A DNA stretch of 64,000 nt from Psychromonas sp. psych-6C06. Its GTDB lineage: Bacteria > Pseudomonadota > Gammaproteobacteria > Enterobacterales > Psychromonadaceae. The notes under the pieces are model-generated. The model ran no database searches, was not told the origin of the DNA, and saw nothing but the letters and a program-made list of their open reading frames with translations. A program made the position numbers and the translations under genes. Shown here one piece after another: positions 3,709 through 63,374 of this stretch (positions are counted from its first letter, which is position 1; each line of letters starts with the position of its first letter). The stretch spans positions 362,398-426,397 of the forward strand of contig NZ_PIZM01000002.1 of NCBI RefSeq assembly GCF_002835465.1, read 5' to 3'.

Positions 3709-3773
3709 CCGACTTTTTCCTTGTTCTGTGGAGGCCTAAGCCTCCGAAATTACTAATAGATTAAACAGTGCAA

Positions 3774-4382
3774 TTACAACTGAATACCAGAGAATGACAT
3801 GAAACCTAATGCCATTAAACCTGTTGTTACGAATGTAATACCCAGACCACGTAAACCATCTGGCACGTCTGAATATTTCATTTTTTCACGAATACCCGCT
3901 AGGGCAATAATTGCTAATGTCCAACCAACACCACTACCAATACCGTAGACCGCTGACTCTAATAAGTTATATTCACGTTGTACCATAAATGATACACCAC
4001 CGAATATTGCACAGTTAACGGTAATAAGCGGCAAGAAAATACCTAATGCTTGATACAAAGCAGGGAAGTATTTATCTAATACCATCTCTAGTATTTGTAC
4101 TAGCGCAGCGATTACACCGATGAATGTGATAAAGCCTAAGAAGCTTAAATCTGCATCAGGGAAACCAGCCCACTCTAGTGCGCCAGGTGCTAATAAGTTA
4201 AAGTAAATGATTTGGTTAACCGGTACCGAGATACCTAGTACCACGATAACCGCGACACCTAAACCCATCGACGTTTTAACTTTCTTAGATACAGCTAGGA
4301 ACGTACACATCCCTAAAAAGAAAGCTAATGCCATATTTTCCATGAAAATAGAGCGAACAAATATGCTTAAATAATGTTCCAT
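3774..4382 (-). CDS. nqrE: Na+-NQR subunit E
   Basis: 202 residues and six predicted TM helices, standard length. NqrE pairs with NqrD in the membrane; conserved cysteines of the two subunits hold the intramembrane Fe centre (here in the FLGMCTF and TVNCAIF segments). It starts 5 nt after nqrD, and the operon order is standard. Confidence 0.96.
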
Positions 4383-4387
4383 TCAAA

Positions 4388-5020
4388 TTACTCCTTTGGC
4401 TCTACTTGTTCAGGTTTAACGGTACGAATCGCCCAAATAATGCCACCAATGATAAAGAAGGCACTTGGTGGTAATAGCAATAGACCGTTACCTTGGTACC
4501 AACCACCATTAGAGATTAATGGCAAGATTTCAAAACCAAACAGTGCACCAGAACCAAATAGTTCACGGAAACCACCTACAAGGATAAGAATGAAACCGTA
4601 ACCTAAACCATTACCGATACCATCCATTAAACTTGGGAAAGGTTTGTTCTTCATCGCAAATGCTTCAGCGCGGCCCATTACAATACAGTTTGTGATGATA
4701 AGACCAACATATACTGATAATTGCGTCGATAAGCCGTATGCATAAGCACGTAGCACTTGGTCAACTAAGATAACCAATGAAGCGATAATAGCCATCTGCA
4801 CGATGATACGTACACTATTTGGAATAAAGTTACGAATCATTGAGATAAACAAGTTAGAGAATGCAGTTACAAAGACAACCGCCAGCGTCATTACAAACGC
4901 TGTTTCTAACGTTGCAGTTACTGCTAGTGCAGAACATACCCCTAGAATTTGTAGTGCAATCGGGTTATTGCTGACTACAGGAGAGGTTAGTACCTCTTTC
5001 AATTCACTTGATTTAGCCAT
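4388..5020 (-). CDS. nqrD: Na+-NQR subunit D
   Basis: 210 residues, six TM helices, homologous to NqrE in inverted topology. Conserved Cys-containing helices (LGVCSALAV and ITNCIVMGR) match the Fe-binding half sites of the family. The start codon overlaps the end of nqrC by 8 nt, indicating translational coupling. Confidence 0.96.
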
Positions 5021-47701: not shown

Positions 47702-48013
47702 ATGGACAGAATTATTTTAATTGCCCAGCAACTGGTAAAAGAGGGGAAAACCCCAAATACGGCGATGATAAAAGCACGTTTACCAAAAAATATCCCGCTA
47801 CCCACCATTATCGCAGGTTTAAAGCTTTGGCAAGAAAACCCAAATAAACAGATAGATACACCAACCGAGCCGGCATTAATCGCCAATGAAAAAGCAGAGG
47901 TTGGTAGCTTTGATCAACTATTAGAGGCCAAAATTAAACAAATGTTAATCCCATTACAGGATGAGATAAAACAATTAAAAGCAGAATTAAGTACATTAAA
48001 GGCGACTAAATAG
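47702..48013 (+). CDS. Small HTH-like protein with C-terminal coiled coil, unknown function
   Basis: 103 residues. N-terminal half (LVKEGKTPNTAMIKARLPKNIPLPTIIAGLKLW) has the look of the KfrA-type winged-helix pattern; the C-terminal third is a coiled coil (LEAKIKQMLIPLQDEIKQLKAELSTLK). Next in line was a DUF2310 gene, of which only the first 23 codons remain here. Confidence 0.75.
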   Translation: MDRIILIAQQLVKEGKTPNTAMIKARLPKNIPLPTIIAGLKLWQENPNKQIDTPTEPALIANEKAEVGSFDQLLEAKIKQMLIPLQDEIKQLKAELSTLKATK

Positions 48014-48085
48014 GTGTTTATTAATGAGTTAAGCTTCGAGTGTTACAAGAATACTCAATATGCGGCTGTTGAACGTGCGATCTAA
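48014..48085 (+). pseudogene. 5' remnant of a DUF2310 gene
   Basis: GTG directly after the previous stop opens a 23-codon frame, VFINELSFECYKNTQYAAVERAI. It matches residues 17-39 of the full DUF2310 protein at 53322 (VFIKELTFECYQNTQYASVERAI) and then meets a stop. This marks the left edge of the island: the native gene was cut after this point. Confidence 0.85.
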
Positions 48086-48594
48086 TATTCACAAACTTTT
48101 TAAAACAAGAATACAGAAAAGAAGGGGTGAATCATTCAATATTCGAGAGTGATTTTGTGGACTAGTGCTGAGTAGCTATGAATAAGTTGTAAAAAAACAT
48201 CGCTTGAGACTGTAATAAAAACTGTGTAACTGCTTATTTATAATCCAACTATTTGGAAGGATAAGCAGTTATGGTTCAAAAACAATTAGAAGCGTTTGCT
48301 CGTGAAGTAGCTAAACGCAGAATTAGATGATCACCTTGGTTATTCTAAGCACAGTAAATCATCGACTAGTAACAGCCGTAATGGCTCTTCCACTAAGACT
48401 ATCATCACTGACGATGGCCCGTTTGAGTTAGAAACGCCAAGTATTCTGTTCGAATAGACTGTATTGGCTTAATAGATTTTACTGCCAATTTAGAGGTGTT
48501 TAAATTATTGCCCATCTCAGCTTTGAAGCGCACCATAGTGGCTTAGAAAGCTATAATGTTGTGGCTAATATTAATCAGCCACAACAATGAAAAA
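48086..48594. other. gene-free stretch, 509 nt, containing an IS remnant
   Basis: Apart from the IS256-family remnant (listed separately) I see no gene. 48455-48594 is AT-rich and carries no recognisable repeat. Confidence 0.6.
48205..48456 (+). mobile_element. degraded IS256-family insertion sequence
   Basis: GAGACTGTAATAAAAACTGT at 48208 looks like an IS256-type terminal repeat. ATG at 48271 begins MVQKQLEAFAREVAKRRIR and then stops; another frame continues with ELDDHLGYSKHSKSS, SNSRNGSSTKTI and DDGPFELETP, the conserved IS256 transposase N-terminal region (LxAHLGYxKH, GNSRNGxSxKT). The remainder is lost, so it is a dead element. Confidence 0.8.
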
Positions 48595-49518
48595 TTAATT
48601 AACTTCTTTAATGATGTTATAGGCAGATGGGCATTTATCATTAGATTTTTTATTTGTCCCAGTACCAACAAGGGCTCTGAAATTAACCTTTAGGCCTACC
48701 TGAACATACTTATGATCTATCTCTAGTTCTTCTGAACTAAAGTGAAAGCTACCTTTGGCTGTCTCTATAAAACCGAACTGCTTCATTCGCTCCCACTTAC
48801 GTATTTTTCCTTTGAGTTGCTTGTAGCTAGAGGTTAATTTTTTCTGCTTTAAATGTATAAAACAGCGATCCACCTGTTCATCAACAATGGTAAAAATATC
48901 ATCTTTCTCTTTAATGAGCTCTTTTAGTCTTAGACAGTTATATGTTCGAGGATCAAATGATGAGTCTAATGTCTTGAGCATGGTACCTAGATCGCCCAAG
49001 TAAACTGGCTCATTCGTTTGAGCACATTTTTTATAGGCGGCCACTAGCAAAGCATCAACATCTTCATGTTGCGCAGGGGATAACTCTGAGGCAATTAAGT
49101 TTGTTGTATAGACAAAGTTGTGACAGGCCTTTCTAAAGCGCTCAGGCGTGTTCTCTTGGCCAATAGCCATAACATGCAAGCCATGTTCTCTAATTCGCTG
49201 TGCAACGCTATAGAAGCCTCCATCGCTTGATACAATACACACTGCATTTATTCGGGTGTTGTTATTAATTAACTCAATAGCATCCATGACTAATGCATGA
49301 TCTGCTGCATCTTTACCATAGTGGAACTGCTGCTTTGGACTAGAAGCAGTAGCGTGGAGTACATCTTTCCAGCCACTTTGTTGCGCAGAGGTCCAGTCAG
49401 CATAAACCCATTTGATAGCTACTAAGCCGTGTTTTTCGACCTCATTCAATATTAAATGGTAATCATTATGTGATGCATTTTCACCATCAACTAATACTGC
49501 AAAATTTAAGTTAGGCAT
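48595..49518 (-). CDS. NYN-domain nuclease-like protein with HTH and cold-shock-like domain
   Basis: 307 residues from MPNLNFAVLVDGEN (49518). Residues about 1-140 are a LabA/DUF88 NYN (PIN-like) domain with the acidic positions LVDGEN, D88/D92-type YGKDAADHALVMDAI and CIVSSDGGF. About 150-235 looks like a winged-helix OST-HTH/LOTUS segment (VYLGDLGTMLKTLDSSFDPRTYNCLRLKELI). The C-terminal part (KIRKWERMKQFGFIETAKGSFHFSS, VGLKVNF) looks like a cold-shock RNA-binding domain. This suggests an RNA-cleaving enzyme. It overlaps the upstream gene by about 8-14 nt. Confidence 0.8.
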   Translation of the reverse strand: MPNLNFAVLVDGENASHNDYHLILNEVEKHGLVAIKWVYADWTSAQQSGWKDVLHATASSPKQQFHYGKDAADHALVMDAIELINNNTRINAVCIVSSDGGFYSVAQRIREHGLHVMAIGQENTPERFRKACHNFVYTTNLIASELSPAQHEDVDALLVAAYKKCAQTNEPVYLGDLGTMLKTLDSSFDPRTYNCLRLKELIKEKDDIFTIVDEQVDRCFIHLKQKKLTSSYKQLKGKIRKWERMKQFGFIETAKGSFHFSSEELEIDHKYVQVGLKVNFRALVGTGTNKKSNDKCPSAYNIIKEVN

Positions 49519-50599
49519 AAACATTCTCCTTAGATAAGGTATCTGCTAACTTCATCATTTCTGATTTATCATTTTCAGATATGTCAGGTAAAGAGATCAT
49601 TTGAAAGCCAACTACTTCCATTGGACCGTAATCATCATAATCCTCACCAGTATTCGCATTTATTGCTCGAAGATCGTCTTTAGTAACATCAACTTCATTA
49701 TTCAACCCGTAAAGATGCCAAAACCACTTTTCATTTACTGATCTTGAATGATAAATTCTTTCTGCAATTGAATAATTACAAGGATTTACGATTATTTCAC
49801 TTCCTAACCAGTCAACATAAACGTCTTTAAATGCGTCTTCTGAAAGTGTTTTATGATGATTAGATAAGTAACCAATTGCATCTAATATCATTACGGGTGC
49901 ATCTTCAAAAAGGTCTGAATATTCTCGATTACAAGCTTCATTAAACTGAGAAACGATAGGTTTAATATTCATTGGAATTGGCAAGTTTGCAGCGTGTTCA
50001 TCCTTTAAAATATTTTGTAGCAGGTCTTTAAAGCGCTTTACATACACAAAGTGCTCAGCAACTTGTAACTGAAAGGAATTTAACTTTTCACCAGATAATC
50101 GTTTCCCATGCCAATACTCACCACCGCGATTGTCAGGGTTATCCTCATAAAAAGATATTTCACCTAGACACATGACTAAAGTGAGTAGGCGTGCCTCTGC
50201 ACAATTATCACCAATCAAAGAACTCAGAGATGCTAAAACATCTTTACTGATGACTTCTGGAGAATTTTCAAGTTCTTGGATCAACTTCTCTATTTGAAGT
50301 GTATTTTGAAGAGGCTGTTGTAATACATTACTAATTATTTTACATGAAGTTAGTCCATCCGCCGCATCAAAGCCTAAAGCAAGGCTTCTGTCAAAACACT
50401 GAGCTTGAGCATTTTCTACTTCATCGGGTGTAATTTTATTAAATGATAAGTCACTCTGATACGCAGCGTAACTGCCATAACCACAATACGCAGATACAAG
50501 CTCATATACGTGACTTTTCTTGAATTTGGGATTCGACTGTTTTAATTCTGAATAAATGGTGTGAACAAGGTTCTTTAACTTTTTCATAAATATATCCAT
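49511..50599 (-). CDS. Unknown protein, partner of the NYN gene
   Basis: 362 residues, acidic, largely helical. N-terminal HTIYSELKQSNPKFKKSHVYELVSAYCGYGSYAAYQSD resembles the short helical domain placed before effector domains in many mobile-element proteins. The remainder matches nothing I recognise. The stop overlaps the NYN start, so they are translated together; this is the reason to treat them as one system. A second ATG at 50587 (MKKLKNL) is the likelier start. Confidence 0.7.
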   Translation of the reverse strand: MDIFMKKLKNLVHTIYSELKQSNPKFKKSHVYELVSAYCGYGSYAAYQSDLSFNKITPDEVENAQAQCFDRSLALGFDAADGLTSCKIISNVLQQPLQNTLQIEKLIQELENSPEVISKDVLASLSSLIGDNCAEARLLTLVMCLGEISFYEDNPDNRGGEYWHGKRLSGEKLNSFQLQVAEHFVYVKRFKDLLQNILKDEHAANLPIPMNIKPIVSQFNEACNREYSDLFEDAPVMILDAIGYLSNHHKTLSEDAFKDVYVDWLGSEIIVNPCNYSIAERIYHSRSVNEKWFWHLYGLNNEVDVTKDDLRAINANTGEDYDDYGPMEVVGFQMISLPDISENDKSEMMKLADTLSKENVYA

Positions 50600-51005
50600 A
50601 CGCTTGAGGCATTTCTGCTGTCAATCATTACCACACGCGATTACGGCTGATTTCTCAAGCCAGATATTTATTAAAAATTAAGTTTTTTGGGGGTATTTTA
50701 TCTTTCGAGATAAATGCTGTTTTTCACTCGCGTGCAAGTGCGGCTAGCGCCATTAAGATAATCCTATCTTATCCTAGGGTGCAGTTCTACAATTTACATC
50801 ACAATAATCAAATTACATCTAATGAAATTATCAATTAACAAATTGATAATAAGAGAAGTTCTCTCTGGTGTTTGAACAGTAACGCCCTTAAAAAATTGCA
50901 AATAAATGCAGATTACAAATATTTCAATCAGGGGAATTCCTGTATTTGACCTACTCACTTTGGTCATCTCCGTGAGTAGGCCTTGGTCGGTGTTTAGATT
51001 TAGTT
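50600..51005. other. intergenic region, 406 nt, with one hairpin
   Basis: CCTACTCAC (50949-50957) and GTGAGTAGG (50971-50979) form a 9-bp stem with a 13-nt loop downstream of the CoiA-like gene; no T tract follows. I see no gene in the rest. Confidence 0.5.
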
Positions 51006-52058
51006 TTATTGCACTATATTCGAAACAACCATTTGCGGGCGCCCATAAACAGTCACCATTTTAAATTCAAACTCTACAACGCAAGGAAAAGTCATAGAGT
51101 CCAGCTTGGGGATTAGGCTTTCATCAAATGACACTTTTTCGATATCATAACCACCATTACCGCGTAAATTGTAATTAGTTGATGAATAGCCCTGAATTAA
51201 CTTGCCACACATTAATAACGAACAATCAAAGTCTCGGCCCTTCTTGCGGGAATAACCATAGCCAGAGCTAAAACCTAGCAGTAAGACTTGATTAGGTTTT
51301 GGCTCTAGTTGCGTGTCTTGAGGGGCCTGAGTAATTGAGCTTCTACAAACCAAGTCATATTTAAGCGTTACCAATTGGCGTATTTTATCATTGATTAGCC
51401 CTATCTCCGCTTCAAGCTCCTCTTTCATTTCTTGTTGTATCTGTTCATGGACAGGATGAAAGACCCAATAACGAGGAGAGTCATACATCACAGCTTGTAT
51501 AAGCTCCTCCATATCACTCATTGCACTACACGCCGAAATATCAATGGATAAGGTAGCAACACCACGCTCTTTTACCTTCTCTGTTTTTTCTGGTGATACA
51601 TCATTGCTAACTACAATTTCTATAAAGATCACCCCATCATCTGTAAAGCATGTTAAGTCCGGTTGAAAGTCTCCAGCTGACTGCTCTGGTATCACGTTGT
51701 TAAATTGTAAGGTGTATTTTCTATTAGTAAATTCTTTACTGTGGTATCTACCAACAATATCTATTTCTTTTACTTCAATCGTTAATGGCGCTATTCCAAC
51801 CACGCATTTATCTTGAATAATTTGCTTACCTAGCTTATGTAAAATAGATTCATTGCAGTTGTTTTTATTGCCATCGTGATGTGCAAAATGATGTACTTTT
51901 ACATCCCCTTTTCTTGCGATTAAGGGGCTACCACATCCAATGCATTCACAACCACAAGCGAGTCCTTTTTCAACTTCACTAATCCTAATTACCTTGTCAT
52001 TTTTCATTCCATAAGCAAATTGAGCTACATTAATTTTCGTTTTAAGTTCAGTATTCAT
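51006..52058 (-). CDS. CoiA-like protein (zinc finger plus nuclease-like domain)
   Basis: 350 residues. Near residues 34-61 it has CxCIGCGSPLIARKGDVKVHHFAHH, the zinc-finger and HHFAH motif of the competence CoiA family; about 130-160 there is a D-(x)n-E pattern in PDLTCFTDDGVIFIEIVVSN, consistent with a PD-(D/E)XK-type nuclease. The C-terminal 140 residues are unassigned. CoiA relatives occur in competence and in defence islands; here the setting suggests defence or DNA processing. It is on the minus strand with no partner in the same unit. Confidence 0.7.
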   Translation of the reverse strand: MNTELKTKINVAQFAYGMKNDKVIRISEVEKGLACGCECIGCGSPLIARKGDVKVHHFAHHDGNKNNCNESILHKLGKQIIQDKCVVGIAPLTIEVKEIDIVGRYHSKEFTNRKYTLQFNNVIPEQSAGDFQPDLTCFTDDGVIFIEIVVSNDVSPEKTEKVKERGVATLSIDISACSAMSDMEELIQAVMYDSPRYWVFHPVHEQIQQEMKEELEAEIGLINDKIRQLVTLKYDLVCRSSITQAPQDTQLEPKPNQVLLLGFSSGYGYSRKKGRDFDCSLLMCGKLIQGYSSTNYNLRGNGGYDIEKVSFDESLIPKLDSMTFPCVVEFEFKMVTVYGRPQMVVSNIVQ

Positions 52059-52214
52059 GTTAATTATCCTTTGTGTATTTCACATAACAGGTGCAAGGGC
52101 TCTCCTTGCGACGCAAATGAATAATTAACTAATAATTAGAGTTCAAACAGAGTATTACTCGGCAATACCCAGTAATATCCACTAAATATCAGTAGGTTAA
52201 TGTAGGTTCAGTAT

Positions 52215-53228
52215 ATGTGTGATAAAACGCAAGCAATGCATGATGCAATTAAAGTGGCAGAGATATTTTGGGATAAATACGATAATGAAAATAAAGGTAA
52301 CTTGTTTTGGAATGTATTTTTAGCCATCATCGAATTAACAAAAGATTCACCAGAGCTTGCTGCCGAAAAAGCTAATGAATGTTATTTTTCAACAGCAGAA
52401 ATGTGTCAGAAATTTGAAGAGTTAGCAGACAAAAAAGAAGGCTCTGTTAACAGTAGCCGGCTATCAAAAGAGTATCGTACACTTGGAGAACATTTAGAAG
52501 CTGTTGAAGTTAGATTCATATCGATTGCAACAGAGTCTGGCAGCCGATTTATTCCAGTGATCACTAAAGATAAAAATTCTGGAGGCCAAGGTAAACAAAC
52601 AAATTACCGTTTGTCATACAAAGAAATAGAAACTAATAACTTAGAAAATCAGCCCGCTACTAATGAGCCTAATACACAAGATACTAATGAAATTGATTAC
52701 TATGTTGAATCAACGCCAAAACTACTTTTCTGGTCAAGCTGGTTACAGAGTTTAAATGTAGAGAGATACCGCATACCAATTATATTATTCACAGCTAGCC
52801 CTTTCATTATTGGATTTAGTGCTCTTGTTATGTTCTGGCTAATGGTAATAGGCATTGGATTAGACATTGGCTGGACAGTGATTGGAATTTGTGCGATTTA
52901 CATTTTGTGTTTTATGATGTTTTTTAGGTATTTCATCACTGCAATAGAGAATAACATAGCGCTTATTCCTGACTGGATGTTACCACTAAATTTAACATCC
53001 GCTGTTCTTCAATACGAACTAAACAAGCCAGGTACTAAGAAAAAAAGGCTTAAAAAGCTATCTGTCAAAGTCTATTCAGCTAAGTGCCCAATATGTGGTC
53101 ATAGAATAATCCTTAAATCAAAAGGTTTACCCTTTAACAAAAGACTAATAGGTGAATGTGATTTAAACCCTGTGGAACACAGGTATAGTTTTGACTTTAC
53201 CAACTTGCGAGGCAAAAAAATAACATAA
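52215..53228 (+). CDS. Two-TM protein with C-terminal zinc ribbon, unknown function
   Basis: 337 residues: cytoplasmic helical N-terminal part (1-190) with a SRLSKEYRTLGEHLEAVEVRF segment that looks like a winged helix, two or three TM helices (about 195-255), then CPICGHRI and GECDLNPVEHRYSFD, half of a zinc ribbon. I cannot name the family. It is the last plus-strand gene before the intact DUF2310. Confidence 0.65.
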   Translation: MCDKTQAMHDAIKVAEIFWDKYDNENKGNLFWNVFLAIIELTKDSPELAAEKANECYFSTAEMCQKFEELADKKEGSVNSSRLSKEYRTLGEHLEAVEVRFISIATESGSRFIPVITKDKNSGGQGKQTNYRLSYKEIETNNLENQPATNEPNTQDTNEIDYYVESTPKLLFWSSWLQSLNVERYRIPIILFTASPFIIGFSALVMFWLMVIGIGLDIGWTVIGICAIYILCFMMFFRYFITAIENNIALIPDWMLPLNLTSAVLQYELNKPGTKKKRLKKLSVKVYSAKCPICGHRIILKSKGLPFNKRLIGECDLNPVEHRYSFDFTNLRGKKIT

Positions 53229-53321
53229 TACCATTGTAGTGGTTAGGTAAAAGTTATTATCGGTATCGAAGTCTCAACTGTTATACTTCCTATATTATAC
53301 CGCCGTTAATTGTGCAGATAG

Positions 53322-54173: not shown

Positions 54174-54332
54174 ATGTTAAAAAAGATAAAGATCTATGGT
54201 TCACTATTCATTTTATTAGTGATTGCATTCTTCATTTATAAGGGCTATTCGAAAGATGAAGTGGGTAATGTTTCACTAGGTTTGTTTACTACCAAAGACT
54301 TCCTTAATTTTTTTAACACAAAGTATGCTTAA
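54174..54332 (+). pseudogene. 5' fragment of a creA-like gene
   Basis: A 52-codon frame with a clear AAGGAAG ribosome binding site. After a hydrophobic N-terminal anchor (SLFILLVIAFFIYKG) it reads DEVGNVSLGLFTTKD, the start of mature CreA (compare NEVGDISLGMFTTQD in the intact copy), then runs into unrelated residues and a stop. It lacks the lipobox of the intact copy and all of the CreA core. Confidence 0.8.
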
Positions 54333-54426
54333 AATAGCATAAAAAACCACCTAGTAAACCTTTACAATTTAACTACAATAGCCCTTACCTAAAAACAATA
54401 TTTACAATTATCACAAGGTATTACCC

Positions 54427-54894
54427 ATGAAAAAGATCTTAGCAATTATATGCTTAACAACTTTACTTACAGCCTGCTCAGATAATGAGGTCGGTGATAT
54501 CTCACTTGGAATGTTTACAACACAGGACATAAAATTAAATATTTTAAAAGATGATATTGTGTCTGGTGTAACTTGCCATATTGCTTCAATAGAAGCTGAC
54601 CTTAGTTTTTCCGACCCAAGTGACAGTTCAATCTCTTGTAGACAAACAGGTGAAATAACGCCAGAAATGATTGCTCAAATAGATAAAAGCAAATCAGGTG
54701 AAGTGGTGTTTAAAAAATCAAAAAGCATCTTTTTCAAGACAATGAAAATTAGAAGAATACTGGATGCAGAAAATCAAACACTGATGTATGTTTCTTACTC
54801 AACAAAAGAAACATCGGGTAGTTTCAAACATAGCCTTTCAACCGTTCCGTTATGGGGAACTAAGGCTTATGCAGAACCTGTATTAACCCAATAA
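54427..54894 (+). CDS. creA: CreA family protein (lipoprotein form)
   Basis: 155 residues, full length. Signal peptide with lipobox LTAC (C18), then the CreA core: LGMFTTQDIKLN, VTCHIASIEADL, SISCRQTGEI, GEVVFKKSKSIFFKTMKIRR. CreA is a periplasmic/outer-membrane-associated protein of unknown function. A terminator follows. Compared with the truncated copy at 62991 it is clearly diverged in DNA, so one of the two was acquired from elsewhere. Confidence 0.9.
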   Translation: MKKILAIICLTTLLTACSDNEVGDISLGMFTTQDIKLNILKDDIVSGVTCHIASIEADLSFSDPSDSSISCRQTGEITPEMIAQIDKSKSGEVVFKKSKSIFFKTMKIRRILDAENQTLMYVSYSTKETSGSFKHSLSTVPLWGTKAYAEPVLTQ

Positions 54895-54900
54895 CAAAAA

Positions 54901-54920
54901 AGGCAACCGTGTGGTTGCCT
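54901..54920. terminator. terminator after creA
   Basis: AGGCAACC, loop GTGT, GGTTGCCT; preceded by an A tract, so it can also serve the minus-strand gene at 54938. Confidence 0.8.
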
Positions 54921-54937
54921 CATTACTCTCTTTCAAA

Positions 54938-55171
54938 TCAGATTGTGACTATATCATTTGAAAAGGTGTAATCTAATTTCCCCTTTCTTACAAAAGTAAA
55001 ATTACACTCAGCCTCAGCTATCTCCATCAGCTTTAACATCTGATGCGTATAGTAGAGTCTGTTTCCTTCCAAACAATCCCTGCCAAAAATACTCTCTATA
55101 ATTATTTTCAGCGTCATTTCACCTGTTTTTTCTATTAAGCAAGAGCTAACTTTACCTTCTACGTTTTGCAT
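54938..55171 (-). CDS. small protein, unknown function
   Basis: 77 residues, two beta-rich halves around a helix (YTHQMLKLMEIAEAECN), one cysteine pair-like arrangement (C12, C32, C56). Not recognised. It lies alone between creA and a creA fragment and may be a small island gene; a chance frame is less likely, because its codon use and length are reasonable. Confidence 0.5.
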   Translation of the reverse strand: MQNVEGKVSSCLIEKTGEMTLKIIIESIFGRDCLEGNRLYYTHQMLKLMEIAEAECNFTFVRKGKLDYTFSNDIVTI

Positions 55172-55194
55172 TTATTTTTAACTTCTTATCCCCT

Positions 55195-55325
55195 ACTAGA
55201 GACGCTGTGAAAATTAATTTCTTGCAGACAAACAGGAGAAATGATTGATCAAGCAAATAAACCATACGGCTGCCTCATTCTTTACTCATATAAATTGAAT
55301 AACAGGCATAGTTTAAAACATCCTA
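55195..55325 (+). pseudogene. decayed internal/3' fragment of creA
   Basis: 55217-55240 translates as ISCRQTGE, followed by MIDQANK (intact: MIAQIDK) with a small deletion between. Further on, TACTCATATAAATTG...CATAGTTTAAAACATC aligns with the YSTKETSGSFKHS part. It is too damaged to code for a protein. It is a third creA trace in the island. Confidence 0.65.
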
Positions 55326-55346
55326 TTAACCATAATAAAACTTCAA

Positions 55347-58300
55347 TCATTTAATTTTAAGATCTACAAGGAGGTGGTAAATCGCTATTTTTTTATCCTC
55401 TCGAAAACGATACTCTACGGCAGTGATTAATGCAGGCTCTTTCTTCAAAGAAATAACCTCATGGTTATCTTTGTCTACATCTTTAAATCCATCATATTGC
55501 TTACTTTTTAGATTTAAAAAGTACTCTTGAACTTTTTCGGTAAAGTTAGAAAAATAACAATATGACACAATGAAAACAGGCGATAATCCTGATAAGTCAT
55601 AATCCGAAATTTTGTTTAAATGTGCGTCTATGGTTGTATTGTCAAGGGAGCTTAAGTTTAATGCCTCAAAAATAGAAATGGGGGTGTTTCTATTATCCAA
55701 GATCAAGCCATCACTTTCCCCCACACCAATTCCACTTGGCGCTTTACCTGTTCTTTTTTGATCACAAAGTGTTAAACCGAACCACGATAACCTATGATTC
55801 GCCAATGAAACACACCAATCATTAATTAAATCTTCATTTTTATGTTTATTTAAAATTTCAAGGTTCTTTGCTCTAATTAGTAATTCTTCTACACAAGCTA
55901 AAATTTCTCGATATAGAAAAACCTCTACACTGTTTTTCTCATCATTTGATAGGATACATGCAAGGTCAGTCACTGACTTAGCTTTAATCTCTCTAAAAAT
56001 AACTCTCAGATCATCATTTGATTTATGTGCATTAATCACTTCATGTTTCATCATCTCACGCTGAAGGGGTTGAAGCTTTTCTTTTATGGATGTTGCAATT
56101 AGTTCAACCTCTTCAATTAAGTCAGAATCATTGTCTTCTATTGCGTGATATTTTTTGTAATTATCAATTAATTCTTGAGCAACAAGAATGTTATTAGTAA
56201 GTCGTAATACCTTACAGTAAGTAATAGTTACTGGTTTGTAATTGATCTCTAACGTATTTAGTTTTGAACATAAACGAACTAGATGGTCATACTTCTTTGC
56301 CAAGAACAATGCATATAAGTAATCAGATTTGTAATTGAGAGGTAATGAATCAAACGAAAAGTGGTCACTTTGATTAATATATTCATTAATTGTATTTTCA
56401 AATTCACACACAGTTGCATCATCACTAATTAACCCCTGTATTTTCGATGTGAAAATCAAATGAGAAAACAGACTGGATTTATTCTCATTAAATAGGCGTT
56501 GAAATATTACACTTGATAATTTTGGATTGTCATGGAGATGTATTAACCCGATGACATAATTTCGAAAAATATTTGCTTCCCGCACCCAATGTTTGAAACT
56601 GCTATTGTTTTTAAATTTCACATCTAACTTTGGAATAGACAGTTCATTTATTGATTTCTCTTTTTCAAGAGGTTGATCATCAGAGTAGTATTGAACAAGC
56701 AATTCATACTTGTATTCTAAAGTAGTCCATTTAAAAATTAGTTCTTGCACTGAAACATGATTTTTATAGCGATGATTTTCAAAAAATTGTTTAGATTTAT
56801 TTAAAGCAAGTTTAGCTAAATCCAATTTTGAAGACTCTAAGGCTAACGAAAATGACTTTTCAATAAAATCTAAGCTAGATTCATTTTTCTCTGAATAGTC
56901 ATTAGAATCAATTTCTGATAATACTCTTTTACGCCTACTGCTAATATGCGTATTTGAAAGTAGGGTTAGCATCGCTGATAATGGGGCTTTTGAACTTAAA
57001 CCATTTAATAGTTCATCAAATAAATCATCATTAAAATCGTTGAAAATATTTGTTAGCTTATCCCATAAATCGTAACTTTCTTCATTGAGCCTTGTATAAC
57101 TATCATTTAAAAGTGGAAAGCTGATATCTTGATTCTCAAAGCCAAAATCAAGGATAGTATCCCGAATCAATCTTCCAATTTTATTTTTGTTTGCATTAGG
57201 CAAGGAAAATATATTAATTAAAACTTGGATGTAATTTTTAATTGTTTCCGTGTATTGAATAGGGTTATCTTTATTAGTTGAAGAAAAACCTAATGCCATT
57301 TTCATTGTTGTTGGCATTAGACTTGTGAATTTGTCTGTAAATTCTCCTTCACCAACCCCTGACCAATATAGTTCATCATAAAATTTCTCAGCCTTCAAAC
57401 ACGATGATTTCTTTAAAAGACTAAATTCAAAGAGCTTTTTATAATGCAGTAATATCTCACCTTTAATTTTATCTACGATACTTATCTCAGATATATTGAA
57501 CTTTCTTTGGCTGCAATCCAACATCTTGAATAATACGTAGAGCGTATACTTTTCTCTTATAGGATCTAACTCAATAGTTTTAATTTCGTTTAATAAGTGA
57601 GGATAAACCTTCACTGCATTGTCTTTGTTAATGCAAGAGATGAGTATATTTAGGCAACTCAAGTTAATTGAATCATCTCGTTCATAACTATTAATACTAT
57701 CTTTTGCTAAAAAGAGTATTAACTTCGACAATTCCCTTTCTCTGTTATGCTTTATTCCCATATTAATGGTTGTAATACAAAGCAGTTCTAAAATATTTTC
57801 TATTGTTTTAACATAATCATTGTGAACTCTGTTACTCGTATATTTTCTTTTAATTTGTCCTATCAGCTTATAAAACCCTGCCAGAAAAGCATCAGGTCTT
57901 GAAAGGAGGTATAAATAATAGGTGTTCGTATTTTTTACAAAAGTCTCATTCAGTAAAAAAAATCGTAACACAACGTTATCTTTTGCTTTTTCGTACAATT
58001 CATCTACAACTCCATGACTGCTAGCTTCAGAGTAATGGATAAAAATATCATGATCTATAATTGAACGTAATGAAGAACAAACCAGATTCTGATGATCATG
58101 CATTTCATGATTGCGATCTGCCCAGTTAATTAAATCAATATCAGTTTCAAAGCTAATGCAGCGATTAACACTATAACTTTTAACGACTTCATCTATATGG
58201 ATGGTTTTTTCTACGACTTCATCAGCTCTCCTTTTATCTTCTTCATTACCCAAATCTATATTAATATGCATAGTTCGAGAAACAGAAATAATACTGTGAT

Positions 58301-59117
58301 CAAAGCCTCTGTGGCTCCAGAGGATGTTTTTATAACGTTCAAACGGAATTGTTAATAAAGTTGAACACTCAATATTTTCCTTACAAAAATTTATGAATAT
58401 TTGTTTTTCTTCATGGTTAAAAATATCTTCGTTCGGCATGCCTAAAACATCAATATATGATTGTCTTAAGTCATAATATTTTTCTCTTATCTCCTTTTTA
58501 TTTTCGTAATGAACGAATTTTTTCCAGAAATAATAATTAATTAGATGTCCATTATGCCATCCATCTTCTGAGATAATAACGGTGTATAATTCACTCTCTT
58601 TAGTAATTTCAATATTGAAAAACTTAAACTCATAACTAGAAGGAACAATTTTTTCAAAAAGCAATTTATCAATAGAAAATTGTGTTGGGTTTAAGATCAA
58701 ATGACGACTATCTATATCTTGAAGGTTTTTAGCAAACCTTATAATAGGTTTTACTGATTCATCAATTACTTCATATCGGCTTTCATTAGGTAAATGTGCG
58801 CTTATGTGTACCCATCCATGTTCAAAGAATAGTATGCCTAGCTCTTCAAGAAGAGAAAAATCAAAACTCTCAGCTAAAGATACATCTTCACCATTAATAT
58901 TTGTCCAAGACATTTCGCCAGAGTGCAATTTTTTTACAACATCACGACTCAATCGAGGAGTTTTCAGTTTTAACTTAAGTAATATGTCTGCGATATAATC
59001 AGCTTCTACATGCTTGCTAGCATTAAGATCTTGCCCATTTTCCGACTTATAAAGATCGCTCTGGGTTAATAATTCATTAAGTTCTGATATTTTTAGAGGG
59101 TACATATCATAATGCAT
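55347..59117 (-). CDS. 1256-residue protein of unknown function with possible C-terminal nuclease domain
   Basis: Very large and mostly alpha-helical; the middle (about 400-1050) looks like a helical-repeat scaffold. The last 130 residues read GVGESDGLILDNRNTPISIFEALNLSSLD, then THINKI-like and SPVFIVSYCYF strands: the layout of a PD-(D/E)XK fold, with D1136 and E1151 as candidate catalytic residues. I find no P-loop. AAGGCC lies before the ATG at 59117; a second ATG at 59105 is possible. It lies downstream of the ABC-3C operon, 336 nt away, on the same strand, within the island. Base composition is more AT-rich than the flanking core genes. Confidence 0.75.
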   Translation of the reverse strand: MHYDMYPLKISELNELLTQSDLYKSENGQDLNASKHVEADYIADILLKLKLKTPRLSRDVVKKLHSGEMSWTNINGEDVSLAESFDFSLLEELGILFFEHGWVHISAHLPNESRYEVIDESVKPIIRFAKNLQDIDSRHLILNPTQFSIDKLLFEKIVPSSYEFKFFNIEITKESELYTVIISEDGWHNGHLINYYFWKKFVHYENKKEIREKYYDLRQSYIDVLGMPNEDIFNHEEKQIFINFCKENIECSTLLTIPFERYKNILWSHRGFDHSIISVSRTMHINIDLGNEEDKRRADEVVEKTIHIDEVVKSYSVNRCISFETDIDLINWADRNHEMHDHQNLVCSSLRSIIDHDIFIHYSEASSHGVVDELYEKAKDNVVLRFFLLNETFVKNTNTYYLYLLSRPDAFLAGFYKLIGQIKRKYTSNRVHNDYVKTIENILELLCITTINMGIKHNRERELSKLILFLAKDSINSYERDDSINLSCLNILISCINKDNAVKVYPHLLNEIKTIELDPIREKYTLYVLFKMLDCSQRKFNISEISIVDKIKGEILLHYKKLFEFSLLKKSSCLKAEKFYDELYWSGVGEGEFTDKFTSLMPTTMKMALGFSSTNKDNPIQYTETIKNYIQVLINIFSLPNANKNKIGRLIRDTILDFGFENQDISFPLLNDSYTRLNEESYDLWDKLTNIFNDFNDDLFDELLNGLSSKAPLSAMLTLLSNTHISSRRKRVLSEIDSNDYSEKNESSLDFIEKSFSLALESSKLDLAKLALNKSKQFFENHRYKNHVSVQELIFKWTTLEYKYELLVQYYSDDQPLEKEKSINELSIPKLDVKFKNNSSFKHWVREANIFRNYVIGLIHLHDNPKLSSVIFQRLFNENKSSLFSHLIFTSKIQGLISDDATVCEFENTINEYINQSDHFSFDSLPLNYKSDYLYALFLAKKYDHLVRLCSKLNTLEINYKPVTITYCKVLRLTNNILVAQELIDNYKKYHAIEDNDSDLIEEVELIATSIKEKLQPLQREMMKHEVINAHKSNDDLRVIFREIKAKSVTDLACILSNDEKNSVEVFLYREILACVEELLIRAKNLEILNKHKNEDLINDWCVSLANHRLSWFGLTLCDQKRTGKAPSGIGVGESDGLILDNRNTPISIFEALNLSSLDNTTIDAHLNKISDYDLSGLSPVFIVSYCYFSNFTEKVQEYFLNLKSKQYDGFKDVDKDNHEVISLKKEPALITAVEYRFREDKKIAIYHLLVDLKIK

Positions 59118-59453
59118 TGTAGAGGCCTTACAATGTCAGTTCAGTAACTACTGAACTGCATTTATTTAATAGGAGAAAACACAAAATACTCAGAGTTATT
59201 TACACCATCTTATATAAATCAGATGCTGCATCTTGATTTTTCGGAGCGTCCCTAGAGAATAAAGAATACCCGTTTTAAACAATTAATCATAAGTACGATT
59301 TATTGACAAACTAAAGCTACCGATCAACCTTGCTATTCCTTTAGAAAATTAGGTCGTATTTTTATCCTCCTACTTCATACTTAGATATAGGTTCGATTGG
59401 TAGACAAAGCACACCATCACAATAAAGTCGTAGTAAAATTATCTTTCAAAAAT
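59118..59453. other. intergenic region, 336 nt
   Basis: Between the ATPase gene of the ABC-3C operon and the 1256-residue gene. AT-rich. I see no gene and no strong hairpin; it must hold the promoter of the large gene if that gene is not read through from the ABC-3C operon. Confidence 0.5.
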
Positions 59454-61208
59454 TTAAAATGAAGGCATTTTAAATAGCCTGCCATCAGTGCCACGATCAT
59501 GTAACTCTCGAATAATTTCATCTTTTTGAAAGTATTCTTTTTTATCATCCTTTAAAGGTAGATCGCTATCTAAAACAGTAATAATAAACTGTAAGCCATG
59601 ACTTAAAGACACATCTCGCCACTCCTCGATTAACATCAATTTAAGGCGGTCATCTAAACTTTCTAAAAGACCATCATGGTAACAAAATCTAAAGAAGTCA
59701 TCTTGATAGTTCAATTTCAATAAAGTTGCATCGAAAATAGCTGATAATACCCGTGTATATGAAAAACCTTCATTAACTGAGGTTTGATCTTTTAATCCAA
59801 TTTTAAATTGGATGTTTCCATCTTTATTAGTATCAGTATAAAAGAATGCTGAAAAGTTTAGAATGTGATCTACAAGTTCTGAAAAAATAGTAACCGCACT
59901 AGTCAGCTTTTCATTTCCTCTTACTTTAGTTTCAACTTCGAGTTTTTTAGCAACTTTTCCTTTATCTGTCACAGCTTCTTCCAACTTATCACCAAGCTCA
60001 GATGCCAGATCGATTTTGGCTAAACGCTCTTTCAATACAGCCACTCTAGAGTCTTCAACTCCGAGTCTGCTTTGTAACTTTTTATATTTTTCAAATGCAT
60101 CTTTTTGAAGTAAAACAGAAGTCAATTCTTGTTGCCTTTTCCTCTCTCTGGCTAGTGTTAACTTGACCCCCTCCCTTTCATTTAAAATCGAACGCTTTGT
60201 TTTGACTAATCGATCTTTTCTACCTATAGACATTTCTTGGTTTATTTTTATAAGATCTTCATATGATTTGGTTAAACTCTCAGGAAAGTATAATTCGACT
60301 TCTTCAAACAGAACTAACACTTTTTCCATTTCAAAAGAGAACTCTGCTTTTAGGGATTTATCAATCGCATAAATTTTTTGATCAAGAGAGTAAATTACAG
60401 AAAGCATCGATGAGATTTTTTCAGATACATCATCAATTAACTCTTTGCTTACATTTTCATCTGATTTTTTGAAATCAAACTTGTCAAGCTCAAGCCTCAT
60501 TCTACTGACTGACGCTTCAATCTGGGTTATTTCAGCTTCTAAGCTTTGTCCGCTATCACTAGGTAAATTCTTAACTTCTTTAATTGCATTTTTTAAAGAC
60601 TCTACACGCCTATTTGCCCCATACTTTTCTTCAACTGAACGAGAGTTGATACCGATTACGGATGCTAAATATGGAGCCCAAGATGCGTCTCCCTCTCTAC
60701 TATTATTTACCTTAAAAGTATTTTCATATTGCGTTTGTTTTCTAAAACAATAACGCAGACCATTTCGATAGTTAAACCCTAATTCAAATGCTTTTTTCGG
60801 GCATATTAGACTATTTAATTTTTCTTTAGCAGTTTTGAAGGCTAATTCTGGATGGTCCCAATTGTGACTATCACTTAAACTAAACCTAGTTTTTTGAGAG
60901 GTAGAAGTGATTGATATTTTCCCAACTACAGGTCGTTTTATAGTTACAAAACAACACTCGCTGTATTGAACTTCTAGAAAAAACTCAAAATCAAGGAAGC
61001 AATTTTTCTTTAATATATGCTCTTTTGAGATCTGTTTTAACAAACAAAATTCTATAATATCAATTAGTGTTGTTTTTCCAAGACTATGAGATGACTTGTT
61101 ATCAGCATGATTACTCACACTAGCAAAAATAACATTTAACCCATCTTTAAACTCTATATCAGGGAAAATATTCTTTTTGTTAGAGTATACTTTACTTAAT
61201 TTAATCAT
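59454..61208 (-). CDS. ABC-3C system ATPase (DUF2326, SMC-like)
   Basis: 584 residues from MIKLSKVYSNKKNIFP. The ATG (61206-61208) overlaps the stop of the preceding gene by 8 nt; the longer frame is unlikely. It has an N-terminal extended P-loop ending SLGKTTLIDI (G44-K45-T46-T47), a long coiled coil (about 200-430) with a hinge, and the C-terminal half of the ATPase. It ends in GTDGRLFKMPSF, the hallmark of DUF2326. In ABC three-component systems this is the ATPase that senses or clamps nucleic acid and triggers an effector. No effector is fused. Confidence 0.9.
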   Translation of the reverse strand: MIKLSKVYSNKKNIFPDIEFKDGLNVIFASVSNHADNKSSHSLGKTTLIDIIEFCLLKQISKEHILKKNCFLDFEFFLEVQYSECCFVTIKRPVVGKISITSTSQKTRFSLSDSHNWDHPELAFKTAKEKLNSLICPKKAFELGFNYRNGLRYCFRKQTQYENTFKVNNSREGDASWAPYLASVIGINSRSVEEKYGANRRVESLKNAIKEVKNLPSDSGQSLEAEITQIEASVSRMRLELDKFDFKKSDENVSKELIDDVSEKISSMLSVIYSLDQKIYAIDKSLKAEFSFEMEKVLVLFEEVELYFPESLTKSYEDLIKINQEMSIGRKDRLVKTKRSILNEREGVKLTLARERKRQQELTSVLLQKDAFEKYKKLQSRLGVEDSRVAVLKERLAKIDLASELGDKLEEAVTDKGKVAKKLEVETKVRGNEKLTSAVTIFSELVDHILNFSAFFYTDTNKDGNIQFKIGLKDQTSVNEGFSYTRVLSAIFDATLLKLNYQDDFFRFCYHDGLLESLDDRLKLMLIEEWRDVSLSHGLQFIITVLDSDLPLKDDKKEYFQKDEIIRELHDRGTDGRLFKMPSF

Positions 61209-61449
61209 TATTAATCTCACAAATACAAACTAAATCCGTTTCATTTTTATATTCAACCTTTCCAAGTAAATACAAAAAACTTATAGCCAGCATTACATCT
61301 TGTTCATTGATTTCCTCACAGCTAGTTTTCGCATATGAAAGCACCTCATGTAATTGCTTATTACCTCTTTCTTTCAAACACTGTAAAACTTGCGATGCGA
61401 CATGCACTAGCGAATAATCTAAATTCATAAAGCGATGAGGTTTTAACAT
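61201..61449 (-). CDS. ABC-3C system middle component
   Basis: 82 residues from MLKPHRFMNLDYSL. That ATG is preceded by GAGGAG and overlaps the CTD stop by 7 nt. It is a small winged-helix-like protein, with SLVHVASQVLQCLKERG and DVMLAISFLYLLGKVEY, the pattern of ABC-3C middle components. It probably bridges ATPase and CTD protein. I cannot assign the MC subfamily by eye. Confidence 0.8.
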   Translation of the reverse strand: MLKPHRFMNLDYSLVHVASQVLQCLKERGNKQLHEVLSYAKTSCEEINEQDVMLAISFLYLLGKVEYKNETDLVCICEINND

Positions 61450-62024
61450 ATAAGCTCCTCTTCTATTTTTCTTCCTATAAAACAATTCGCATACAGGTAA
61501 AATAAAAACAAGCTTATTGAATCTTCTTTATTACATAAGGAAGCATATTGTGAGTCTAATAAAACATTTTCAATTGACATCAGAAGCTCTTCGAAAGTAT
61601 CAAATTGCTTATGTCCAACCAATATTTTTTTGTTTAAACTTTTAATAATTTTACCGACAAGACCTTGTAAATTTTCACTTGCTCTTTGCTTCAAAAAACA
61701 ATCTAACTCAAAAAAATATGGTTCATAATCTCTGGAGATTATTTCATCATAGAAAGACTGGCTTAAATTATTTAGCTCATTTTTCTTTTCAATGCTGATA
61801 GAGCCAAAATCACAAGGTTTCTGCTCCAATTCATGGTATTCATCAGCGATCGCTACAATAACATCACGTAAAGAATTAGGATCAAACGTTATAGCTCCCT
61901 TATGCGTCTTCACAAGGTTCTCATATACCAATGGGTAATTATGAATACTTTTATCTATATTTATACTCTGAGAGCCAGAACTACCAAAAGCTTGGGATTG
62001 ATTAACACTTAACTCATTTGTCAT
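61443..62024 (-). CDS. ABC-3C CTD protein with N-terminal Asn/Gln/Ser/Gly motif
   Basis: 193 residues. Residues about 45-193 are a helical domain ending at EEELIC, in the place of the C-terminal domain of ABC-3C effectors. Instead of a large effector domain, only a 30-residue Asn/Gln/Ser/Gly-rich leader precedes it. In it, V7-N-Q-S...S15-x-G-x-Q-x-I21-N-I matches the tail of the neighbouring TM peptide. The start overlaps the stop of that gene by 11 nt (ATGACAAATGA). Confidence 0.75.
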   Translation of the reverse strand: MTNELSVNQSQAFGSSGSQSINIDKSIHNYPLVYENLVKTHKGAITFDPNSLRDVIVAIADEYHELEQKPCDFGSISIEKKNELNNLSQSFYDEIISRDYEPYFFELDCFLKQRASENLQGLVGKIIKSLNKKILVGHKQFDTFEELLMSIENVLLDSQYASLCNKEDSISLFLFYLYANCFIGRKIEEELIC

Positions 62025-62202
62025 TTTGATCTACTTTCAAATCGATTTTTTGGTCACCTTTTGAGAAAGTACCCGAAGTTTGGTTTATATTAAATTTTGC
62101 AGACTTCGAGGCATTGATACGGAAAATTTGAATCAATCCAATTAATATAGCGACAACAATTCCAATTATTGCAATCCATTCACCTGTTGATAAATCACTC
62201 AT
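62014..62202 (-). CDS. 62-residue single-TM protein of the ABC-3C operon
   Basis: One TM helix (about 8-27, WIAIIGIVVAILIGLIQIF), followed by a basic NASKSAK linker and the tail FNINQTSGTFSKGDQKIDL. The tail resembles residues 7-23 of the CTD protein over 17 positions without gaps. This small membrane protein is a candidate effector or anchor. Its short length and overlap with the CTD gene argue that it is a real operon member. Confidence 0.75.
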   Translation of the reverse strand: MSDLSTGEWIAIIGIVVAILIGLIQIFRINASKSAKFNINQTSGTFSKGDQKIDLKVDQNDK

Positions 62203-62238
62203 TTAAATACTCCATTGGTCGTAAACGATTTGTAGATA

Positions 62239-62670
62239 TCACTCAATTTCACACTTTATCTTCTCTATTTTAGCTTTCATTGTTTGCATAGAGTCTTTGG
62301 GTTTATTTGCCTTACTCAGCAAAATAAATAACTCAATTAAAACAAGCCCTGAACCAATATAAACACCAGCAATGAACAAATCGAAAAATTTTAAACATGC
62401 TTGAGTAAGGAGAAAGAACATAGCAAATGATTTAATTCCTAGAGTTATCAATACGACACCACCAACATAACTAAACGTATGAAAACAATCATGTAACATG
62501 TTTTTATAGCCAGTTTGACTGACGTAAGTTTCTATTTTAAAAAGTTTATTTTCGTGTTCAACTAGTTTTTTCTTTAAACGTATATTTCTTGTGCCGTAAT
62601 ACCAAGCAAGTAAAACGGATATCAACCCCAAAGAAACACCTAATAACTCTGCAATAGTAATAATGTTCAC
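62239..62670 (-). CDS. multi-TM protein, first gene of the ABC-3C operon
   Basis: 143 residues from a GTG start (62670). It has three to four TM segments (about 5-24, 65-90, 93-115) with a basic loop between (RNIRLKKKLVEHENK) and a lysine/glutamate-rich tail. Not recognised. It lies 36 nt upstream of the TM peptide, probably in the same transcript, and could be part of a membrane effector. Its role in the system is inferred only from position. Confidence 0.65.
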   Translation of the reverse strand: MNIITIAELLGVSLGLISVLLAWYYGTRNIRLKKKLVEHENKLFKIETYVSQTGYKNMLHDCFHTFSYVGGVVLITLGIKSFAMFFLLTQACLKFFDLFIAGVYIGSGLVLIELFILLSKANKPKDSMQTMKAKIEKIKCEIE

Positions 62671-62990
62671 CTCATAAAATGCAACAGTGTAAATGGCTTA
62701 ACATATTTTTATCGTATGACTTTAATATACCGCCACTGAATTTTTAATCAAAAACATACTTTATATTTTCTAGCAAGAATAACAATGACCTAGCGTTATA
62801 TCTGAAAAGAAAGTGAATACTGTAGTGTTATTTGCGGGGGGAGTCACTTGAAGTTGGTAGGAGTCTGATTTGAAAAATAATAAATAAGCCAACCTTAATC
62901 ATAAGGGTTCCAAATTCTTAAATAATATCAACACCTCATGATAAGATACTGATTAAAAATAAAAAGAAAACTGTTATAGTTTGTGTAATA
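62671..62990. other. intergenic region, 320 nt, between the ABC-3C operon and the creA remnant
   Basis: Holds the operon promoter (listed separately) next to the island edge. I see no gene in it and no clear repeat marking an integrase site. Confidence 0.5.
62724..62751 (-). promoter_or_regulatory. putative sigma-70 promoter of the ABC-3C operon
   Basis: Minus strand TTGATT (62746-62751), 16 bp, TATATT (62724-62729); start about 47 nt before the first gene. In AT-rich DNA such matches are common. Confidence 0.4.
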
Positions 62991-63374
62991 GAGGCAACAT
63001 CAAAAGATATTAAAATCGAAAAACTCAGCGATCCGCAAGTGAATGGTGTTACCTGCCATATCTCTAACATTGTTGCTGATTTAGATTTTGCAGATCCTTC
63101 TGAGTCTTCAATTAGTTGTCGTCAAACCGGACAAATAACCGCAGATATGCTGGCTAATATTGATAAATCAGCCACGGGTGAAATCGTTTTTAAAAAGTCT
63201 AAAAGTATTCTTTTTAAAAGCTTAAAGATAAGACGTATTTTTGATCAGTCTACCCAAACGTTGATGTATATCTCGTATAGCACGAAGGAAGTTAATGGCA
63301 GCTATAAACACGCTATGTCGACGGTACCTCTCTGGGGAACAGAGGCTTATACCACGCCTGTTGTTACGCCTTAA
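62991..63374 (+). pseudogene. creA gene lacking its 5' end
   Basis: The frame reads ATSKDIKIEKLSDPQ, VNGVTCHISNIVADLDF, SISCRQTGQITADM and onward to the normal CreA C terminus (ending TTPVVTP). Everything before the T[TS]KD point, including the signal peptide, is missing. A GTG at 63039 could start a shortened cytoplasmic form, but it would lack export. It marks the right edge of the island and probably is the native copy, as the following terminator and cybB-like gene look like core sequence. Confidence 0.85.

Follow-up and report, generated by a model that had tools for sequence, protein, structure and literature searches.

The 64,000 nt window analysed here is part of contig NZ_PIZM01000002.1 of Psychromonas sp. 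psych-6C06 and includes, on the minus strand at 55347-59117, an open reading frame (ORF) that begins with ATG and runs for 1256 codons to a stop. An earlier note on this DNA had given the same coordinates and the same length of 1256 residues; the strand, absent from that note, is minus. As 18 other relatives of more than 1150 amino acids (aa) were found (19 such proteins when the window protein is counted), we conclude that this ORF is a real gene. Its product is predicted to consist of a long helical-repeat scaffold, or solenoid, followed by a C-terminal domain that very probably has the PD-(D/E)XK nuclease fold, and it is likely to be a defence protein that works on its own. The parts of the gene and its product are as follows, with fractions giving the sequences of a wider alignment of the nuclease domain that keep a residue.

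55347-59117, minus strand: coding sequence of the 1256 aa solenoid-nuclease protein (ATG start, 1256 codons and stop; 18 further relatives of >1150 aa)
55932-58559, minus strand: predicted helical-repeat scaffold, residues 187-1062, tetratricopeptide repeat (TPR)-like from about 720 and HEAT-like at about 390-860 (AlphaFold2, VIA-align)
55350-55985, minus strand: predicted C-terminal PD-(D/E)XK-type nuclease domain, residues 1045-1256, core about 1095-1187 (AlphaFold2 model, conservation)
55833-55835, minus strand: E1095, first residue of core helix A, motif I position (24/24)
55758-55760, minus strand: Q1120, D-Q motif directly after core strand 1 (24/24)
55710-55712, minus strand: D1136, motif II acid before core strand 2 (24/24)
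55665-55667, minus strand: E1151, motif III acid in core strand 3 (24/24)
55611-55622, minus strand: H1166-x-x-K1169, core helix B (motif IV), candidate migrated lysine (both 24/24; precedent in PMC1913061)

The protein was described in the earlier note as unrecognised, with no nucleoside triphosphatase (NTPase) motif and no known defence domain, and our searches agree with this. No Walker A pattern is present in the 1256 aa sequence, no family was returned at E≤1 from Pfam, NCBIfam or the 5027 profile models of PADLOC-DB 2.0.0 (2023), and there was no match in PHROGs at E≤0.01. When PDB sequences were searched with the single protein and with three profiles, nothing beyond chance was found; matches to rhinovirus coat, YLR351C and FAF1 sequences were at chance level and were disregarded.

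For residues 1045-1256, an AlphaFold2 model built with 18 of the 23 family sequences (relatives are designated by the L number of their locus; L002-L006 were left out) has a predicted local distance difference test score (pLDDT) of 80.3 and a predicted template modelling score (pTM) of 0.82. The modelled core consists, in order, of helix A (1095-1111), strand 1 (1116-1119), strand 2 (1137-1140), strand 3 (1146-1155), helix B (1160-1173) and strand 4 (1181-1187), beyond which lie one helix and three strands. Only the loop between strands 1 and 2 is poorly defined. The earlier note had proposed a nuclease from an SDGLI...FEAL spacing, with D1136 and E1151 as its acids, and from the strands that flank it. 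Residues 1136 and 1151 do read as D and E, and in the model D1136 directly precedes core strand 2 and E1151 lies within core strand 3. Thus, a PD-(D/E)XK-type core is predicted for the C terminus, and the spacing and strands of that proposal agree with both the predicted structure and the conservation of the columns.

Within the family, E1095, N1099, D1119, Q1120, D1136, E1151, H1166, K1169 and Y1173 are invariant (23/23). The wider alignment of 24 sequences comprises 18 members of alignment A2 (of 23) and six remote proteins, which are described below. In it, E1095, Q1120, D1136, E1151, H1166, K1169 and Y1173 are present in 24/24, N1099 and D1119 in 23, E1134 in 22 and an R at position 1154 in 18; the window protein and its nearest relative have N at this position. 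No homologue that lacks the D or the E was found, as both are kept in 23/23 sequences of the family and 24/24 of the wider range.

Comparison of the model with known structures gave a list rather than a match. Foldseek's 1000 highest chains from PDB supplied 999 that were realigned with VIA-align, and the best were BglII (Z 7.8, 134 residues aligned, 3.8 Å), McrC (7.1) and BsaWI (6.7), with EcoRV at 6.3. Restriction enzymes and other nucleases fill 34 of the 50 rows shown, the first 12 without exception; they fall into 14 kinds, all of which we take to be PD-(D/E)XK enzymes, and EcoRV alone accounts for 18 rows. Among the members of the domain family, the one from E. coli had a single PADLOC match, a weak one to CARF_PDDEXK (E 0.0042), and over the same residues it also weakly matched PDDEXK_4 in Pfam (E 0.034).

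Several observations count against a nuclease fold. The lysine of motif III, expected two residues past E1151, is missing, and F or L is found there in the family. Foldseek itself returned no match at E≤0.001 from PDB, where the top rows were tyrosine phosphatases with a TM-score of about 0.25, and none at E≤0.001 from viral models. The other 16/50 VIA-align rows are not nucleases but unrelated proteins (examples are gephyrin, Rep15, acetyl-CoA carboxylase and RNA polymerase subunits), and the best Z of 7.8 is in the range (Z 7-8) that, according to the tool, is common for unmatched models. The PDDEXK_4 match is below the cut-off, was seen for 1/12 members and is accompanied in the same scan by unrelated families at E 0.048-0.14; 18 and 12 copies of the domain gave only weak Pfam matches, chiefly to unrelated families. 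A tyrosine phosphatase was considered and dropped, since the phosphatase signature C-x5-R needs a cysteine and there is none among the columns conserved at ≥90%.

The structure-search scores alone are not significant. As the VIA-align Z is unremarkable, we place the weight of the fold assignment on the coherence of the list and on the position of the invariant acids. The missing lysine lowers the case for PD-(D/E)XK membership and does not exclude it, because recognised members also lack it; BglII, an active enzyme, has Q at this position (both from excerpts of PMC4081073). Judging from the alignment and the modelled core, K1169 on helix B may stand in for the motif III lysine. In DUF506, DUF790 and DUF1626 the corresponding residue is described as having moved onto the helix that follows strand 3 (PMC1913061). 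Taken together, we hold with considerable confidence that the modelled C-terminal domain has the PD-(D/E)XK nuclease fold, and predict somewhat less firmly that it is an active nuclease.

The long helical-repeat region reported in the earlier note is also predicted. A model of residues 1-1062, for which 15 of 19 sequences were used (L002-L005 were left out), has pLDDT 80.5 and pTM 0.67, and residues 187-1056 are almost all helix. VIA-align matched residues from about 720 to 1028 to TPR chains, the best being from APC/C (Z 12.0, 244 aligned, 6.6 Å), a score that counts against this assignment in lying under the tool's caution level of about 13 for helical repeats. Residues 390-860 were matched to Kap121 (Z about 11), also under this level. 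The scaffold is thus predicted to be made of helical repeats, which may be of the TPR or the HEAT class.

Profile and tblastn searches revealed six remote proteins that have the same domain at the C end (L036, L037, L038, L088, L089 and L090). The first, in L036, is 335 aa and adjoins an AAA_15 ATPase. The second, of 1245 aa, is encoded at 8117-11851 in L037 between cas1 and cas2-3, with gaps of 63 and 72 bp, in a type I-F locus with csy1-csy4. This arrangement is uncommon (1/101 genomes of L037's family), and no CRISPR array was found in the three stretches of the locus examined. Between cas2-3 and csy1, the opposite strand encodes a YobI/Tmn-like NTPase (L037/L082). The 1217 aa protein of L038 is beside a PDC-S37/Hhe-like helicase. 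When the profiles of L036, L037 and L038 were compared, only the C-terminal part aligned; proteins of similar length may thus have different scaffolds.

Two of the remaining proteins are of the Roco type. L088 is an LRR-Roc-COR protein from a plasmid of Spirosoma (Bacteroidota), about 4 kb from a CAP12-type TIR gene. On the same plasmid, the CAP12/PCTIR TIR gene and a reverse transcriptase (1240-1692 and 3189-4712) lie near the Roco-nuclease. L090 (3727-6462), from Photobacterium toruni plasmid NZ_CP101696.1, is annotated as a COR-domain protein and ends in this nuclease, its LRR and Roc parts having been read by eye only. The genes on either side of it are tniB and tniQ of a Tn7-like transposon that is associated with a type I-F CRISPR system and in which csy2, csy3 and cas6f are present. 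The last, L089, is ORF333 of P2-EC5 (AM157364.1) from E. coli ECOR5, paired with the ABC-type ATPase ORF555. In a near-identity search, the ORF555-ORF333 cassette was present in 4/5426 E. coli genomes, and in E. coli E308 (L091) a P2-type prophage carries it with the replication endonuclease gene on one side and the portal gene on the other. ORF333 is not mentioned in the available excerpts of PMC9122126, which concerns P2/P4 hotspots.

The domain occurs in at least five settings. In the window it ends what is probably a stand-alone solenoid, and in P2 prophages it is paired with an ABC-type ATPase. It is also carried by Roco-type GTPases, one of which lies in a Tn7-like CRISPR transposon operon, by a large protein of a type I-F cas operon and by another large protein whose neighbour is an Hhe-like helicase. 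With L036 as the query, 294 genomes returned only itself and three solenoid relatives, and a wider profile of the domain, for which 12 of the 24 sequences were used, found no further members in 158 genomes. Phage records contained one match for the Roco-nuclease domain, none for the L036 nuclease and none for the full 1256 aa protein.

Relatives of the window protein itself came from the genome collection (16 loci), plasmid records (5, every one <60% identity) and viral contigs (3 loci). Near-duplicates (L019 of L018 and L023 of L024), the N-terminal half of the interrupted L015 and the plasmid hit H5 were left out. The nearest relative is 38% identical over 1237 columns, i.e. the full length. 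Its contig is prophage-like, with NinB/Orf, Ant anti-repressor and Rha-like genes, and a DUF2806/Abi_alpha protein is encoded 288 bp upstream of it. In trees, one well-supported group mixes Edwardsiella, Shewanella and Acinetobacter and a second mixes Acinetobacter, an Enterobacteriaceae genome and Comamonas. When related genomes were searched, 2/99 were positive, the home genome and one other. The domain is rare, being found in 1/369 class genomes, 6/394 order genomes and 4/398 phylum genomes sampled, these samples overlapping and each including the home genome. With two enterobacterial relatives as DNA queries, no full-length member was found in E. coli. The family is sporadic and host orders are intermixed in the trees, which we count in favour of a role in defence. 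Relatives in L006, L015 and L018 appear truncated or interrupted, which fits a costly accessory gene. The accessions of four relatives are named in no paper within the literature searched.

The gene in Psychromonas sp. psych-6C06 is part of an inserted island, and the features around it are:

54174-54298, plus strand: native creA 5' remnant, directly after DUF2310 (creA alignment)
54299-63002, no strand: inserted island, ends uncertain by a few bases, with the 1256 aa gene, the ABC-3C genes below and a second creA (same-genus comparison)
54427-54894, plus strand: second creA, complete, at the left end of the insert (Pfam, creA comparison)
59454-61220, minus strand: ABC-3C ABC ATPase (DUF2326; PADLOC PDC-M68B) (Pfam, PADLOC)
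61201-61485, minus strand: ABC-3C middle component (MC6/MC8) (Pfam)
61443-62024, minus strand: ABC-3C CTD12 protein (Pfam)
62239-62670, minus strand: 143 aa protein, role unassigned, membrane-like by eye (ORF list, library scan)
63003-63374, plus strand: native creA 3' remnant, start about 63003 (creA alignment, joined reading)

The insert is about 8.7 kb and carries, from the left, the complete creA, the 1256 aa gene, the ABC-3C genes and the membrane-like protein. At the same-genus loci examined, creA directly follows DUF2310 in 16/16, and the other genomes of the genus (n = 23) have one creA match in 21 and none in two. When the two halves of the split creA are joined, they make one 163 aa CreA that is colinear with a relative in L079. 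The split native creA directly indicates that the gene came here by insertion. The AT-rich composition pointed out in the earlier note is also seen, with a GC content of 30.7% for the gene and 31.5% for the island compared to 39.4% for window positions 1-48000. No integrase was recognised among the island ORFs, and a count of promoter-like sites (26 in the island vs 41.5 in shuffles) was uninformative. An extra creA-like scrap near 55216-55261 suggests that insertion at this site was repeated. A second insertion relative to the genus, at 48014-53321 between a 103 aa gene at 47702 and DUF2310, carries a CoiA-like protein (51006-52058) and, by eye, an NYN-like protein (48595-49524).

Neighbouring genes were compared at other loci, and 11 of the 23 distinct loci were scanned with PADLOC using proteins picked by eye. 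A match at E≤1e-10 within 5 kb was found at 7/11: the ABC-3C ATPase in the window, OLD about 70 bp upstream in L003, a NERD protein in L008, a PDC-S06 ATPase in L010, Thoeris ThsA and ThsB in L013, a NERD-helicase about 25 bp upstream in L015 and QatA in L022. The matches in L004, L005, L009 and L024 were weaker or absent. This count is weakened as evidence for defence by having no baseline, the neighbours having been picked by hand with no random-gene control, and by the 12/23 loci outside the scan, several of which (for example L011, L012, L016, L017 and L018) seem, judged by eye, to have housekeeping or transposase genes on their flanks. When neighbours within 9 kb were clustered, no recurrent defence partner emerged. 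The clusters are small and by eye contain transposases, LysR regulators, transporters and integrases, or are pairs from near-identical genomes (L018/L019 and L023/L024). As no partner gene recurs, this argues for a one-gene system.

A role in biological conflict had been proposed in the earlier note, and it is supported by the gene context and by the reuse of the domain in other defence architectures. The plan of a repeat scaffold with a C-terminal nuclease and no recognisable NTPase, together with the lack of a fixed partner, suggests a sensor joined to an effector, as does the recurrence of this nuclease in Roco GTPases and next to ATPases. We therefore consider it likely that the window protein is a stand-alone defence protein, a solenoid sensor with a nuclease effector, and infer catalysis, metal use, substrate, trigger and protection as follows. 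The alpha-solenoid of about 870 residues would sense or bind an invader-derived molecule and would otherwise keep the C-terminal nuclease inactive. Binding of the ligand would release or oligomerise the nuclease, which would then cut nucleic acid: either the DNA of the invader or the cell's own DNA or RNA, the latter as happens in abortive infection. The switch would be driven by the ligand because there is no recognisable NTPase. E1095, D1136 and E1151 would form the metal site, and K1169 of helix B would replace the motif III lysine.

It is also conceivable, if unlikely, that the protein belongs with the restriction enzymes, as a Type II or IV-like one, its solenoid reading a DNA sequence or modification and its nuclease directly cutting the DNA of the invader. 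The top VIA-align rows are indeed restriction enzymes and McrC, and no separate trigger need be assumed. However, no methyltransferase match was found among the ten window proteins scanned, and Roco-type GTPases and ATPases, on or with which the domain is also found, are signalling or sensing modules rather than readers of sequence.

We regard it as very improbable that the protein is instead a trans-acting effector of the adjacent ABC-3C system. The location downstream of an ABC-3C operon within the island, given in the earlier note, is correct: the gene for the DUF2326 ABC ATPase, part of a set with MC6/MC8 and CTD12, is the next one upstream on the same strand, with 336 bp from its stop to the start of the 1256 aa gene. 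The minus strand has no terminator-like site in the gap that separates the ABC-3C genes from the 1256 aa gene, so read-through and shared transcription are possible. Moreover, CTD12 fills residues 46-184 of the 193 aa CTD12 protein, which leaves no room for an effector domain, and the nuclease could supply the one it lacks. On the other hand, the window neighbours have no homologue (E≤1e-4, >40 bits) among neighbours within 9 kb at the other loci examined, some of which are short stretches, and relatives instead adjoin OLD, Thoeris, Qat or NERD genes. Because no window neighbour recurs at the loci examined, the ABC-3C operon looks to be a separate system.

That the fold has been kept and catalysis lost, leaving a binding scaffold or regulator, is the least probable reading, as the missing motif III lysine and the N in place of R1154 here and in the nearest relative are set against the conservation of D1136, E1151, H1166, K1169, Q1120 and E1095 in all 24 sequences, which is unexpected for a pseudo-enzyme, and active enzymes such as BglII also have the lysine replaced (PMC4081073, in excerpt).

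A defence protein that combines a repeat-scaffold sensor with a nuclease effector follows a plan that is already known. As far as our searches go, what is new is the family, the signature with a lysine on helix B and the use of one nuclease by several defence architectures. We consider the window protein a good candidate for an unrecorded anti-virus system. Excerpts of the DefensePredictor paper (PMC13092281) report PD-(D/E)XK domains in 13/31 validated systems and TPR proteins in figure legends; some overlap with those systems is conceivable. The nuclease in the part of PMC12799240 consulted is a different one. If our reading is right, it adds a nuclease effector missed by the PADLOC library used, and this one effector would be shared among Roco GTPases, ATPase pairs and a solenoid that has no NTPase. 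It would then become possible to test, as a general question, by what means a repeat scaffold lacking an NTPase turns a nuclease on, and the natural version in an E. coli prophage opens direct testing in laboratory strains.

Among known nucleases, DUF506, DUF790 and DUF1626, in which the lysine has migrated to motif IV, are alike in the predicted core fold, the D of motif II, the acid of motif III and a positively charged residue on the helix after strand 3 (PMC1913061, in the sections seen). However, neither the window protein nor its domain has a Pfam match to any such family, and the domain has a signature of its own (D-Q, G-E-x-D, E-A and H-x-x-K). BglII and McrC gave the highest VIA-align rows, and BglII likewise has no lysine, having Q instead (excerpts of PMC4081073). 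They differ from the window domain in that there is no detectable sequence similarity, no methyltransferase or McrB partner is present here, and a scaffold of about 1000 residues is attached. The ABC-3C operon is adjacent and in the same insert, whereas the 1256 aa protein includes no ABC-3C CTD, middle-component or DUF2326 ATPase domain (Pfam, E≤1) and the adjacency is not seen at the other loci examined.

There are also likenesses to the other carriers of the domain. The ORF555-ORF333 cassette of P2-EC5 and the L036 cassette have the nuclease domain in common with the window protein. In these cassettes, the ABC-type ATPase, which resembles those of NsnB, HEC-03B, PDC-M55A and AriA, is encoded apart, whereas the window protein has a fused solenoid. 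We put at about even the chance that prokaryotic immunity has in the C-terminal domain a portable nuclease effector not recorded before, with the signature E...N - DQ - G(E)xD - EA - HxxK...Y, found in at least five settings, and that in the window protein the solenoid alone replaces a switch driven by nucleoside triphosphate. If so, the window protein would be an immune receptor without an NTPase. The LRR-Roc-COR (Roco) GTPases likewise have repeats on the N side and this nuclease at the C end, and they differ from the window protein in having a GTPase switch where it has none.

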